From an uncultured Ignavibacterium sp. (GTDB lineage Bacteria; Bacteroidota; Ignavibacteria; Ignavibacteriales; Ignavibacteriaceae), in contig CALHAB010000101.1 in the NCBI GenBank assembly GCA_937934185.1, positions 1 through 44,714 of the forward strand: a DNA stretch of 44,714 nucleotides. The letters are read 5' to 3'. Every line of letters starts with the position of its first letter. Position 1 is the first letter of the stretch. The notes below the pieces were generated by a model, which was not told the DNA's origin, did not search any database, and saw only the letters and a list, made by a program, of their open reading frames with translations. A program made the translations under genes and the position numbers. Shown here in pieces: positions 13,791 to 39,323 of the stretch.

Positions 13791-14162
13791 ATGTATGAAA
13801 TAAATGGAATCAAAGTACCATTTCTGCCGATCAATAATTATGACGGCGAACAGGTACGAAACAAAAGTTCGGCTGAAAGTTTTGAATCAATATTTCAGCA
13901 GGAACTTGAGAAACTAAAATTTTCTCATCACGCGCTGAAGCGTCTTGAAGAAAGAAACATCAGTTTAAGTGATGACGATATGTTGAAGATAAACACGGCT
14001 GTTGAAAAAGCTGAACAGAAAGGAGCTAAAGATTCTCTTGTTATGATGAACTCAACAGCGTTTATCGTAAATATCCCGAACAGAACAATCATTACTGCTT
14101 TACCTGTTGAAAGCGGTAATGAAAATGTGTTCACAAATATTGATTCAGTAGTGTTTGCATAG
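13791..14162 (+). CDS. Flagellar operon protein of the TIGR02530 (flg_new) family
   Basis: 123 aa. The core FSHHALKRLEERNI, followed by an alternating strand/helix stretch ending in NRTIITALP, matches the small flagellar operon protein family found between flgD and flgE in clostridia, spirochaetes and others. Its biochemical role is unknown; linkage to hook assembly is by context. The start is directly after the flgD stop (TAAATG). The stop is followed by the only sizeable gap in this operon, the flgE leader. Confidence 0.85.
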   Translation: MYEINGIKVPFLPINNYDGEQVRNKSSAESFESIFQQELEKLKFSHHALKRLEERNISLSDDDMLKINTAVEKAEQKGAKDSLVMMNSTAFIVNIPNRTIITALPVESGNENVFTNIDSVVFA

Positions 14163-14178
14163 CATTAATTAACTGTTA

Positions 14179-14264
14179 CGGGCGGGACCTCAAAAGGACG
14201 CCCGGTCCGATGGACTGACTGAAGTCGGACACCTTTTAACAAAAACTTAAAATATCAGGAGGTC
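14179..14264 (+). promoter_or_regulatory. Structured 5' leader of flgE with GGA motifs and a possible SD-blocking arm
   Basis: Hairpin 1 pairs CGGGCG (14179-14184) with CGCCCG (14199-14204), with an inner CCT/AGG. Hairpin 2 pairs GTCCGA (14205-14210) with TCGGAC (14225-14230). Five GGA triplets occur at 14185, 14196, 14212, 14227 and 14258; the one at 14212 sits in the loop of hairpin 2 and the last is in the ribosome site AGGAGGTC. GACCTC (14186-14191) is complementary to GAGGTC (14259-14264). CsrA binds GGA in loops and over ribosome sites, and csrA is encoded at 39090. The regulatory role is inference. Confidence 0.6.
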
Positions 14265-14267
14265 ATT

Positions 14268-15902
14268 ATGTCACTTCTAAATTCTCTTTTCTCGGGCGTT
14301 TCCGGATTAAGAAACCATCAGGCAATGATGGATGTTATCAGCAACAACATCGCTAATGTTAACACAATCGGTTATAAAGGTTCGCGTGTTACATTCAGTG
14401 ATACATTCAACAAAATTATCCGATACGGTTCAAACCCAACTGATACAGCCGGCGGAACAAATACTTTTCAGATTGGTTTGGGTATGAAGCTGAATTCTGT
14501 TGACAGAAACTGGACGCAAGGTACATTTGAAGGAACCGGAATTGTAACCGATCTTGCACTTCAGGGAAAAGGTCTTTTCATTCTTGAAAACAATGGCGAA
14601 AGATTTTATTCAAGAGCAGGTGCATTCATTTTTGATGCTCAGGGAAGATTAGTTAATTCCCAGAATGGTGCTATTGTTCAGGGTAAGGTTGCAAATGAAG
14701 AAGGCATCATTCCTCCGGGAAACTATCTTGAAGATATTATCATTGATACAAATTTAAGATTACCTGCAGTTGCAACAACTGATATCACCTGGGGTGGAAA
14801 TCTGGACAGCTCTTCAAGTCTTACAAGATCTGAAAATTATCTGCAGACAGGCAACATCAATTCAAACATAAACATTGGAGATTCTGTAACAGATACAAAT
14901 AAAGTTTATGATGAAAATGGTAATGAATATACTTTTACAGTAACATACACAAAAACAGCTGCCGATACTTATAATATGACTTATGTTTTAAAGGATGCTA
15001 ACGGTAATAATGTTAATGGTCCAACAACGGCTACAGTAGTTTTTGATTCCGTAACAGGTCAAATGTTAACAATAAACGGCGGTGCTCCTGCTCCGATTAA
15101 TATTCAGGATGTTGGATTGGGAATAAACTTTAACTTTGATCCTACTTCTGTAACACAAACCGGAAATTCAACTACACTTGCTTCAACTGTTGATTCAAAC
15201 AGAAAGCCGACAATAGTTACCGGTTCTTTAACAATCTTTGATTCACTTGGTTCGCCTCATGTTCTTACAATCAAATTCACAAAGACATCAAACAATAACT
15301 GGAACTGGAGCTGTACTGTTCCTCCTGCAGACGGAACTTTAAGCGGCGCAAGCGGAACAATAACTTTCAATCCTGATGGATCAATTTCTTCAATATCTCC
15401 AAATCCACCAGTACTAACTTTTACTCCTAACAGCGGTGCAAGTCCTCAGAATATTGTTCTCAATCTTGGAACTGGTTTCAGCGGAATTACACAGACATCA
15501 TCAAGTTCTGTTGTGTCTGCATTATCGCAAAATGGTTCTGCTGCTGCATCGCTTTCAAATATCAACATTGATAAATACGGATATATCATCGGAGTATTCA
15601 CAAACGGACAAAGCAGACCACTTGCTCAGATACTTCTTGCTACTTTTCCGAATCTTAATGGCTTGATCAGTGTGGGCGAAAATATGTTTACTGTATCTGC
15701 AAACACAGGCGATCCTCTTATTGGTGATCCTGGTGAAACAACCGGAACAACAATTCAATCAGGCGCACTTGAACAATCAAATGTTGATCTGTCAGAAGAG
15801 TTCACAAGAATGATTGTTTCACAGAGAGGATTTCAGGCAAGTGCAAGAGTAGTAACCGTATCTGATACATTACTTCAGGAAATTACAAACCTCGTAAGAT
15901 AA
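14268..15902 (+). CDS. flgE: Flagellar hook protein FlgE with two FlaE-type domains
   Basis: 544 aa against about 400 in enterobacteria. FlgE builds the hook. The N-terminal helix has ISNNIANVNTIGYKGSR, and the C-terminal helix has LEQSNVDLSEEFTRMI, the standard rod/hook ends. Between them the surface part has two similar units, about 205-295 (VYDENGNEYTFTV, then TGQMLTINGGAP) and 315-405 (TIFDSLGSPHVLTIKFTK), both like the FlaE hook domain, which explains the size. A strong AGGAGGTC ribosome site precedes the ATG. It is the last gene of its operon, before a terminator. Confidence 0.96.
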   Translation: MSLLNSLFSGVSGLRNHQAMMDVISNNIANVNTIGYKGSRVTFSDTFNKIIRYGSNPTDTAGGTNTFQIGLGMKLNSVDRNWTQGTFEGTGIVTDLALQGKGLFILENNGERFYSRAGAFIFDAQGRLVNSQNGAIVQGKVANEEGIIPPGNYLEDIIIDTNLRLPAVATTDITWGGNLDSSSSLTRSENYLQTGNINSNINIGDSVTDTNKVYDENGNEYTFTVTYTKTAADTYNMTYVLKDANGNNVNGPTTATVVFDSVTGQMLTINGGAPAPINIQDVGLGINFNFDPTSVTQTGNSTTLASTVDSNRKPTIVTGSLTIFDSLGSPHVLTIKFTKTSNNNWNWSCTVPPADGTLSGASGTITFNPDGSISSISPNPPVLTFTPNSGASPQNIVLNLGTGFSGITQTSSSSVVSALSQNGSAAASLSNINIDKYGYIIGVFTNGQSRPLAQILLATFPNLNGLISVGENMFTVSANTGDPLIGDPGETTGTTIQSGALEQSNVDLSEEFTRMIVSQRGFQASARVVTVSDTLLQEITNLVR

Positions 15903-15921
15903 TCACACCTAAGCCCTCGTT

Positions 15922-15951
15922 AAGGGAGCTCATCAATGGGCTCCCTTTTTT
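15922..15951 (+). terminator. Rho-independent terminator after flgE
   Basis: AAGGGAGC (15922-15929) pairs perfectly with GCTCCCTT (15940-15947) across a 10-base loop, and a T run continues to 15951. It closes the flgB-flgE transcript. From 15952 to 16024 the sequence is AT-rich with nothing else recognisable. Confidence 0.92.
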
Positions 15952-16024
15952 AACCACCTGTTGAATAGTAACCACTTTATTAAATCAAATAATTCTGTTT
16001 AATTAAAATTCACTTAAAAATTCG

Positions 16025-16040
16025 TGGCATATTGGTTGAA
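16025..16040 (+). promoter_or_regulatory. Sigma-54-like -24/-12 promoter upstream of fliL
   Basis: TGGCATATTGGTTGAA, with GG at 16026-16027 and G at 16038, the sigma-54 spacing. It is the least typical of the four such sites (GA instead of GT or GC at -12). A start of transcription about 12 bases on would fall only a few bases before the fliL ATG at 16055. Confidence 0.5.
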
Positions 16041-16054
16041 AAACCAATTCTGCA

Positions 16055-34644: not shown

Positions 34645-36003
34645 ATGGCAATAACAAAAATATTCGACATATCATCACGCAGTCTTTCTGTTTACAGAAG
34701 AGCACTGGAAGTAACAAGCCATAATATTGCAAATGCAAATAATCCTGCTTTCTCAAGACAAAGAGTAATTTTTGAAACAGATATTTCTGATTTGAATGCA
34801 GGAAAAGTCTGGGGTAACGGAGTTCGGATTTCTGATGTTCAGAGAGTAAGGGATTCTTTACTTGAAGCTCACTTCAGAGAAGCGAATTCAAAATACTACA
34901 ATAACAGCCGTCAAAGTCAGTTGATAAACAATATTGAGCAGTTCTTCTCTGAACCTGGTGATTTAGGACTTTCAAACCTTTTCTCCGGCTTCTTCAATAG
35001 TTTTGATGAACTAGCAACTTCACCTAATTCAACTCCTATGAGACTGAGCGTTATCAATGCTGCAAATAATCTCGCAGCAAAAGTAAACACAATCAATCAG
35101 TCTTTTGCAAGAATGAAGCAGGACATTAAAGATGAATTTCAGAATCAGGTTCAGACTGTTAATTCACTGCTTAAACAAATTCATCAGATAAACAAAGAAC
35201 AATTCTCAAACAGTTATAAAGGACTTGCCATTAATGATCTTCTTGATAAAAGAGATGATCTGATTCAGCAACTAAGTCAGATAGTTAACATTACAGTAAC
35301 ATATGATCAGAATAATAATGCAAATGTCTCAATAGGCGGAGCTTTGGCTGCAGATGGTCTGCACGCTGCAGAATTTGAAGCAACAGAATCAAATGGCAGA
35401 CTTGCAATCAGATTAAAGAATGGCGGTATTCCTGTAATATTAAACGGCGGACAGCTTAATGCGCTATCAGAAATTTATTCGGACAAAATTCCTGCCTATA
35501 AGAAAAATCTTGATCAGATAATCACAGCTTTTGTTGATGCAGTTAATCAGGTTCACAAACAAGGTTATTCAATTACTAATCCGCCGCAAACAAATATTAA
35601 TTTCTTTGAAAGTTATGAGAACGGTGTTCTGAAAGTAAATCAGAATATACTTAATAATCCATCTTTAATTTCAATCTCTTCCGATGCGAGCAATGGCAAT
35701 GGGGATATTGCATTGCAGATTGCCGGATTGCGTGAAGCACAGATTATAAACGGAGCAAGTGTTATTGATGCTTACTCAGCATTCATTAATGGAATTGGTA
35801 ATGACGGTTTATTACAGACCAATTATGCTCAGGCAAATAATATGGTTCTTGCTCAGCTTGAAGATCAACGACAATCAGTTTCAGGAGTATCAATTGATGA
35901 AGAAATGACTAATGTTCTGAAATTTCAGAGGTCTTATGAAGCATCTGCAAAACTTATTACCGTTGCTGACGAAATGATAAGAACAATTCTGGAGATGGTC
36001 TGA
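34645..36003 (+). CDS. flgK: Hook-filament junction protein FlgK
   Basis: 452 aa. FlgK is the first junction protein between hook and filament. The N-terminus has VTSHNIANANNPAFSRQRV, and the C-terminus has SGVSIDEEMTNVLKFQRSYEASAK in parts, both typical of FlgK. The family core with FNSFDELATSPNS is present. It is somewhat short (about 550 aa in enterobacteria), lacking part of the surface domains. Its last base overlaps the first base of flgL. Confidence 0.96.
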   Translation: MAITKIFDISSRSLSVYRRALEVTSHNIANANNPAFSRQRVIFETDISDLNAGKVWGNGVRISDVQRVRDSLLEAHFREANSKYYNNSRQSQLINNIEQFFSEPGDLGLSNLFSGFFNSFDELATSPNSTPMRLSVINAANNLAAKVNTINQSFARMKQDIKDEFQNQVQTVNSLLKQIHQINKEQFSNSYKGLAINDLLDKRDDLIQQLSQIVNITVTYDQNNNANVSIGGALAADGLHAAEFEATESNGRLAIRLKNGGIPVILNGGQLNALSEIYSDKIPAYKKNLDQIITAFVDAVNQVHKQGYSITNPPQTNINFFESYENGVLKVNQNILNNPSLISISSDASNGNGDIALQIAGLREAQIINGASVIDAYSAFINGIGNDGLLQTNYAQANNMVLAQLEDQRQSVSGVSIDEEMTNVLKFQRSYEASAKLITVADEMIRTILEMV

Positions 36004-37250
36004 TGAGAATTACAGAAACAATGATGTCAAATTATTACATCGGAAGTATCAATCAACTGAAATCGAAGATCGCTCTTTTGCAGCGGCAGATATCTTCCGG
36101 TGTTAGAATTGAGAAACCATCTGATTCTCCAACCGGCGCAGTTAAAGTTATCAGAAATAATGATCAGATAAATCAGATTGATACTTATCTGAAAAATATT
36201 CAGTCAGGTTTATCATTCTTAAATCAAACAACATTTGCGTTGCAATCAATTCAGGATGAAGTCGTTAATGTTGTCGGTAAACTTGAAGAGCTTGTTAATC
36301 CAATCAATCAGCAGAATATGAGTTTATATGCTGATATGCTTGAAAATTCTTTAAGACTTATGGTTGATGTTGCAAATTCAAAAGCTGATGGCAAATTTAT
36401 TTTTGGAGGAACAGATCAGTCAGGCAAACCTTTTGTTTATTCCGCTGATGGTCAGACAATTGAACAGAACACAAAAATTAATGGATATAACAATGTCAGA
36501 ATAAGTCAGGGAATTCAACAAAGAATAAATATAACCGGACTAGAAATATTCGGGACAATAGTTTCAGCTGATGGTACGCTTGATAAAAATTCAGCCGTTG
36601 GAAATATCGTTACTCAGAACAGAAACATTTATGATAATCTAGGAAATCAGTATTCGCTTCAGGTTAATATTCAGAAGACGAACAGCAATCAATATGAATT
36701 AACATATTCAATTATAGATTCTAATTCAAATACAATATACAATTCGCCTTCGCCAGTACAATTGGCTTTTAGCGCAACAACCGGAGCTCTGGAAACAATT
36801 AATGGCAGCGCTCCTTCAATTATCAGTGTTAATGTGCCTTCAAACAAAATTAACTTTAATCTGGATTTAAGTCAGTTAAGAGAGACTGATACTGATCAGG
36901 TTGTGCTAAATGCTAATCAGGATATTGACATTTTCAATCAGCTTAAAATAATTATTGATAATCTGAGAAATGGAATTCCACCAACAGATGAACAAAGAGC
37001 AGCTGTGAATGCTTTTAATTCAAAGGTTATCGGAAAACTTTCAGAGATTGGAAATATTATTAATCAGTTTACAACAATTGAGAACATGCTTACACAGCAG
37101 AATCTTGATTTAACAGAAAATAATTCTCAGGTAAATGGTGTTGATGTTGCAAAGGCAATAATTGAATTACAGAATCAGGATTATCTGTTACAACTTTCCC
37201 AAAAACTGGCTGCAACAATTTTACCTAAATCGCTTCTGGATTACTTATGA
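36003..37250 (+). CDS. flgL: Hook-filament junction protein FlgL with an inserted FlaE-like domain
   Basis: 415 aa against about 300-320. FlgL is the second junction protein and has flagellin-like ends: N-terminus with ISSGVRIEKPSDSPTGAVKV and C-terminus with DVAKAIIELQNQDYLLQLSQKL in parts. An extra unit at about residues 200-290 resembles the FlaE hook domain of FlgE in this window: IYDNLGNQYSLQV, then TGALETINGSAP and INFNLD, against VYDENGNEYTFTV, TGQMLTINGGAP and INFNFD in FlgE. It sits between the family landmarks TGLEIFG and LKIIIDNLRNG. Confidence 0.95.
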   Translation: MRITETMMSNYYIGSINQLKSKIALLQRQISSGVRIEKPSDSPTGAVKVIRNNDQINQIDTYLKNIQSGLSFLNQTTFALQSIQDEVVNVVGKLEELVNPINQQNMSLYADMLENSLRLMVDVANSKADGKFIFGGTDQSGKPFVYSADGQTIEQNTKINGYNNVRISQGIQQRINITGLEIFGTIVSADGTLDKNSAVGNIVTQNRNIYDNLGNQYSLQVNIQKTNSNQYELTYSIIDSNSNTIYNSPSPVQLAFSATTGALETINGSAPSIISVNVPSNKINFNLDLSQLRETDTDQVVLNANQDIDIFNQLKIIIDNLRNGIPPTDEQRAAVNAFNSKVIGKLSEIGNIINQFTTIENMLTQQNLDLTENNSQVNGVDVAKAIIELQNQDYLLQLSQKLAATILPKSLLDYL

Positions 37251-38702: not shown

Positions 38703-39086
38703 ATGAAACTTAAAACAGACCAATTTGGTGAAATTGAATTTTCTGAAGACCTTATTCTGAATTTTCATGAAGGTCTTTATGGATTTGAGCAATTAAAAAA
38801 ATATTTGCTCGTCAAAACAGATGATGATTTATTTTTCTGGTTAACTTCAGTTGACAGACCAGAAATTTGTTTCCCGTTAGTTGGAACAAGAATCATTGAC
38901 GAAAATTTTCCTGAAGTTGAAAACTACGAGGCATTTGCAATTGTAACATTAAACAAAGATCCGCTAAAAATTACAGCAAATCTAAAAGCTCCGGTTTACA
39001 TCAATCAGGATAAAAAGGACGGATTTCAGAAAATCATTGACACAGATAAATACCCGATAAATTATAAACTTTTTGTAGAGAGCTGA
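38703..39086 (+). CDS. fliW: Flagellar assembly factor FliW
   Basis: 127 aa. FliW binds flagellin and the translational repressor CsrA, linking flagellin level to CsrA activity. The sequence has FHEGLYGFEQLKKYLLV at the start and AIVTLNKDPLKITANLKAPVYIN in parts, the FliW signature. It stands directly before csrA, as in Bacillus and Campylobacter relatives. The start is eight bases after motB with an AAGAAAG ribosome site. Confidence 0.95.
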   Translation: MKLKTDQFGEIEFSEDLILNFHEGLYGFEQLKKYLLVKTDDDLFFWLTSVDRPEICFPLVGTRIIDENFPEVENYEAFAIVTLNKDPLKITANLKAPVYINQDKKDGFQKIIDTDKYPINYKLFVES

Positions 39087-39089
39087 GCT

Positions 39090-39323
39090 ATGCTGATACT
39101 AACGAGAAAACTTAACGAGGAAATAAATATTGATGGGGAAATTACTATAAAAATTATTTCGATTTCCGATAATCAGGTGAAGCTGGGAATTGAAGCACCA
39201 AAAGATGTTCAGATAGTTAGAAAAGAAGTTCTGGAAAGAGTAAAAGAAAGCACTAAAGATGCGCTCAGGAAAATAAATGAGAAGCCGTCTGAAATTAAAG
39301 GATTGAAAATCAAAAAAATCTGA
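39090..39323 (+). CDS. csrA: Translational regulator CsrA
   Basis: 77 aa. CsrA is a dimer that binds GGA in RNA hairpins and ribosome sites and usually represses translation. The N-terminus MLILTRKLNE is intact with RNA-binding R6, and R44 lies in VQIVRKEV. The C-terminal helix is extended, as in FliW-linked CsrA. Starts three bases after fliW. A candidate RNA target in this window is the flgE leader at 14179. Confidence 0.97.
   Translation: MLILTRKLNEEINIDGEITIKIISISDNQVKLGIEAPKDVQIVRKEVLERVKESTKDALRKINEKPSEIKGLKIKKI

Follow-up and report, generated by a model that had tools for sequence, protein, structure and literature searches.

The 5′ leader of flgE, the gene for the hook protein (14268–15902, + strand; Pfam FlgE_D2, Flg_bbr_C and Flg_bb_rod), had been read in the initial annotation as an RNA switch controlled either by CsrA or by its own structure. 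The question is which of these two readings holds, and what might recognize the leader. In the window, i.e. the entire 44,714-nt stretch of DNA that was analyzed, the leader covers 105 nt (14163–14267) between flgE and the gene for the flagellar protein TIGR02530 (flg_new / Flagellar_put; 13791–14162, + strand; E 1.6e-32), which is considered below as a candidate partner. All five GGA triplets that had been noted in the leader were located, with starts at 14185, 14196, 14212, 14227 and 14258, and one of them (14212) indeed lay in a hairpin loop and another (14258) in the Shine–Dalgarno (SD) site. Five triplets in 105 nt corresponded to P ~0.03 and were equalled by 1.7% of the window stretches. 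The genes for CsrA (39090–39323) and FliW (38703–39086) were both found in the same window, as had been claimed. An open reading frame at 36003–37250 combined N- and C-terminal flagellin domains with an FlgE_D2-like insert and is probably FlgL. The leader was not the only sizeable gap, since 152 nt followed flgE (15903–16054) and two more gaps, of 143 and 215 nt, were present near 3.2–4.6 kb.

Two hairpin modules directly upstream of flgE

Directly 5′ of flgE we found an RNA element of ~57 nt (14178–14234, + strand), which was matched exactly by two covariance models built from relatives, the family model R1 and the broader model R2, and which covaried in the alignments A2, A4 and A7. The two adjacent hairpins proposed earlier were thus present, with the comparative evidence being decisive and the single-sequence folding statistics modest (z = −2.65 for the 57-nt element and −1.25 for the whole leader). 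Hairpin 1 (H1; 14179–14204, + strand) consists of a lower stem (14179–14184/14199–14204), a GG bulge (14185–14186, + strand) followed by one nucleotide opposite a purine (A14187 opposite A14198 in the window), a short upper stem (14188–14190/14195–14197) and a variable apical loop. The GG bulge (G8 and G9) was invariant in 91 of 91 sequences, and the base that followed was A in 60, C in 26 and U in 5 of them. The opposing purine was conserved and unpaired, and the length of the apical part ranged from 3 to about 40 nt among relatives.

Hairpin 2 (H2; 14205–14230, + strand) has a covarying stem of 7–8 bp (14205–14211/14224–14230 in the window) and a 12-nt loop (14212–14223, + strand) with the consensus N-GA-H-Y-GA-C-N-GA-N. 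The three GA steps, at 14213–14214, 14217–14218 and 14221–14222, are spaced by four nucleotides and were kept in 89–91 of the 91 sequences with variable bases between them; the outer two could form tandem sheared G·A pairs. A three-frame stop function of UGACUGACUGA was rejected because the base before the second GA was C in 52/91. Extra hairpins were inserted between H1 and H2 in three leaders (L033, L251 and L266), and because such insertions are tolerated, H1 and H2 are separable modules.

Covariation and conserved unpaired letters

The alignment A7 contained 91 sequences from two classes and, like A4, was fitted to the models, whereas A2 was restricted to the family and was made with plain MAFFT without model fitting. 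In A7, two-sided changes were observed in 16 of 17 pairs, divided into 6/6 in the lower stem of H1, 2/3 in its upper stem and 8/8 in H2, including G–U types. Paired cells reached 95.4% compared to 35–47% in slid controls, two-sided cells numbered 426 compared to 114 in shuffles, and none of 500 shuffles reached any of the measures. The family alignment A2 already contained 11 two-sided pairs, and A4 was consistent with A7. The structural half of the initial reading was thereby strongly supported, as both hairpins covary in flgE leaders of two classes.

The G–U pairs argue that RNA rather than DNA is conserved, and a DNA cruciform or operator was rejected on these pairs together with the strand-specific letters of the loop. 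A transcription terminator was likewise rejected: no conserved U-run followed H2 and no terminator-like site was found on the + strand. The invariant unpaired letters suggest specific recognition rather than a bare hairpin. On this comparative sequence evidence, the element is a coding-strand RNA structure under strong selection.

Distribution of the element in Bacteroidota

The genome searches with the models covered one phylum, Bacteroidota, and the genomes compared were mostly metagenome assemblies. Within the family of the window, a FlgE search gave a match in 38 of 80 genomes, and all 30 flgE leaders that were fetched carried the same element. R1 identified it in 35 of the 80 family genomes, in exactly one copy each and in flagellated genomes only. 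Three family genomes had a flgE match and no R1 hit; in two of them (G008 and G065) flgE was cut at a contig end, and the third (G020) had weak paralogue matches only. The element was thus present in 35/35 family genomes with an intact flgE start. Across the class Ignavibacteria, R1 gave hits in 80 of 391 genomes. Deeper families supplied another 33 flgE leaders that were absent from the R1 hits; with the filters off, R2 matched 30 of them, the weakest two of these 30 matches (L270 and L273, E 0.02–0.03) being uncertain. Beyond the 30 matches, the element was recognized by eye, with its inserted hairpin, in L251. The flgE leader L258 (G266) had only an R2 E of 3e-4, the hairpins were not confirmed by eye, and it is regarded as uncertain. 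R2 gave no match in L271 and L272, and no flgE start was located in either leader. Nearly every flagellated family sampled in Ignavibacteria therefore has the element in its flgE leaders. In another class of Bacteroidota, R2 gave hits in 22 of 196 genomes, and the position upstream of flgE was read in 19 of the 22.

A strict exact-match pattern was also run against 84,980 species and returned 78 loci, all of which (78/78) were scored by R1. The loci were labelled Ignavibacteria, Ignavibacteriales, Melioribacteraceae, Stygiobacter and similar, or just 'Bacteroidetes' or 'bacterium'. A mobile repeat was rejected, as the element is single-copy in its own genome and had no match in viral contigs. 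Searches of the open-licence literature found no published description of a conserved hook-gene RNA element and nothing on a flagellar RNA motif in Bacteroidota.

The carriers across the two classes were almost exclusively flagellar genes, and this bears on a small-molecule riboswitch, e.g. one that senses a motility-controlling second messenger. A compact conserved leader RNA with invariant unpaired letters at two places would fit such a sensor. We consider it highly improbable, given the nearly exclusive flagellar carriers with one copy per genome, the lack of an Rfam match and the absence of a common pocket in separable hairpins.

Genomic context and proposed role

Within the family, the 3′ edge of H2 was 25–47 nt from the start codon, placing it at the 5′ border of the region where ribosomes load. 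The TIGR02530 gene immediately preceded the element in 76 of 78 loci, at a distance of 15–181 nt in these 76. In two genera of the order, second copies of the element stood directly before flagellin (L094 in G152, 1904–1963, and L096 in G278, 1946–2002). The variable gap to the upstream gene, together with these two extra copies, demonstrated that the element associates with the downstream gene, which is flgE and twice also flagellin. Other copies were observed in two further loci. In L300 (G433) flgE was duplicated in tandem, with a separate element before each copy. In L098 (G271) a second element (2010–2067) preceded a 661-aa putative secreted protein, whose N-terminus resembled, by eye, a decayed flgE start, so that this copy perhaps arose when the flgE leader was partly duplicated.

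A covarying structure whose position before one gene class is fixed, as was found here, characterizes a structured cis-regulatory leader. A cis-regulatory role is highly likely, and the reading that we favor, somewhat more readily than its alternatives taken together, is that of a structured RNA within the flgE 5′ leader that acts in cis and would be read by a trans-acting factor. The factor, probably a protein, would recognize the bulged GG together with the GA loop and would adjust the translation or the stability of the hook-protein mRNA during flagellar assembly. Hook protein, the principal substrate exported at the hook stage, would in this way be supplied in appropriate quantity or with appropriate timing. 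Conservation alone is compatible with control of translation, with RNA processing or with stability.

Alternatively, the element could act in mRNA processing or stability: an RNase that cuts the polycistronic flagellar mRNA at or near the hairpins would leave flgE with a stable 5′ end of its own, and the abundant hook protein would then outweigh its operon neighbors. The intercistronic site in front of an operon gene for a protein required in large numbers, the strong hairpins, and the extra copies before flagellin, another abundant product, all agree with this. In C. jejuni, flgE mRNA is processed by RNases (PMC11187230). Simple stabilizers do not, however, need an invariant GG bulge and a triple-GA loop, letters that suggest specific recognition, and we regard an element for processing or stability as rather unlikely.

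GGA sites, CsrA and FliW

In the CsrA half of the initial reading, CsrA would bind at GGA triplets in the leader, and this binding would be relieved by FliW, as for flagellin in Bacillus and Campylobacter. When the leaders were aligned for conserved pairs and GGA sites, the pairs were conserved and the GGA sites were not. The GGA in the loop of H2 was present in only 12 of 82 relatives, and the one in the window is genus-level noise. At the bulge, GGA was present in 60/91 sequences and was replaced by GGC or GGU in 31/91, in whole families, and five rows of the 91-sequence alignment had no GGA at either site in H1. Judged by these letters, the conserved unit is GG and not GGA. The GGA of the SD site was present wherever an SD existed.

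Among the 67 flagellated genomes of the class that were tested, 66 had both CsrA and FliW, and neither was found in the ten genomes without flgE. Since both follow flagella generally here, their co-occurrence with the element says little. Four genomes that are 97–100% complete carried the element, and neither CsrA nor FliW was detected in them: G336, which is 97% complete and belongs to family f31 inside the class, and G548, G486 and G622 from the other class. The three genomes of family f31 (G336, G429 and G382) all lacked detectable CsrA, and two of them, G336 and G429, have flgE with the element. The results demonstrated that the element is independent of CsrA/FliW and, as several leaders without an SD retain it, of the SD site. 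CsrA is therefore unlikely as a conserved partner, and control by CsrA as a conserved function of the element was not borne out. The presence of CsrA and FliW in the window and in nearly all flagellated genomes tested in the class, the GGA within the flgE SD itself and the strong enrichment of C. jejuni flgE mRNA in CsrA co-precipitation (PMC4894983) speak for this reading. Nevertheless, the conservation of GG where the letters GGA are not conserved, and the persistence of the element in genomes without detectable CsrA, make it very unlikely. Binding of CsrA to the SD region in SD-bearing species may occur and would be a separate matter.

Pairing between hairpin 1 and the SD site

It had also been proposed that GACCTC (14186–14191) pairs with GAGGTC (14259–14264) at the SD site in competition with H1. 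The complementarity is present in the letters of the leader. The SD sequence GGAGGT (14258–14263, + strand) lies outside the element conserved across classes; it was invariant in 30 family flgE leaders and missing from several leaders of the second class. The pairing itself was unfavorable near the window, where a forced H1:SD fold was 6–7 kcal/mol worse than the best fold in the three nearest genomes, and nearly isoenergetic in some relatives.

These energies bear on a switch built of RNA alone, in which the 5′ strand of the upper stem of H1 (ACCU...) would alternately pair with the flgE SD and the opening of H1 would shut off translation. In its favor, the forced H1:SD fold came within 0–3 kcal/mol of the optimum in many relatives, and in five it was the optimum. 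Moreover, when the order of the apical loop was compared to permuted loops, SD complementarity was favored by 0.8 kcal/mol. However, this bias also fits a UYYR tetraloop, the sequences are related, the fold is costly in the genomes nearest to the window, and H1 is kept in relatives without an SD site. We regard such a switch as distinctly unlikely. Because SD-less leaders of the other class keep the element, SD pairing is at most a local addition to it.

TIGR02530 as a candidate partner

If the element is read by a trans-acting factor, as we favor, the protein encoded next to it is a lead. In an AF2 model of TIGR02530 (pLDDT 75), RelE, ParE and HigB chains filled most of the top VIA rows with Z up to 6.5, below the Z of 8 from which VIA fold matches are safe. 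Foldseek comparison of the model gave E > 0.1. A weak match to DUF4258 (E 0.016, below the DUF4258 cut-off) agreed with a RelE-like fold, the TIGR02530 profile gave nothing significant against PDB sequences, and nothing on TIGR02530 was found in the open-licence literature searched. TIGR02530, with its predicted RelE-like fold, is a candidate partner of the element. In a more specific form, TIGR02530 would be a tamed RNA-binding or RNA-cutting RelE-like protein that recognizes the bulged GG and the loop with its GA steps, in a hook-stage checkpoint separate from CsrA/FliW that predates the split of the two Bacteroidota classes. This is a speculative proposal and a long shot. The element would suggest a role for a flagellar protein that lacks an assigned function.

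Comparison with known systems

The element is kept in nearly every sampled flagellated lineage of a large, little-studied group and so gives direct access to the way in which this group adjusts the supply of hook protein to assembly. As a candidate structured RNA tied to flagellar genes, it resembles Rfam families such as flg-Rhizobiales. An Rfam 15 scan of the window gave no family at gathering score, and weak scans of relatives (E up to 2–5) gave no credible match to the element. In B. subtilis, the hag leader (Hag-FliW-CsrA) is the site of post-transcriptional control of flagellin via CsrA GGA sites. Both leaders precede a gene for an axial flagellar protein, and such control is known for hag; in contrast to hag, with its flagellin target and GGA sites, the flgE element belongs to the hook gene and conserves different letters. 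The C. jejuni flaA leader, in which CsrA binds two GGA stem-loops (PMC4894983), is also similar to the flgE leader, with two adjacent covarying stem-loops before a flagellar structural gene in a genome with CsrA and FliW. In flaA, both loops are ANGGA, one lies over the RBS, and CsrA binding was demonstrated (PMC4894983). The flgE element, by contrast, has no conserved GGA and persists where CsrA and FliW are not detected. Control by mRNA leaders, already known for flagellin, would here serve the hook gene.
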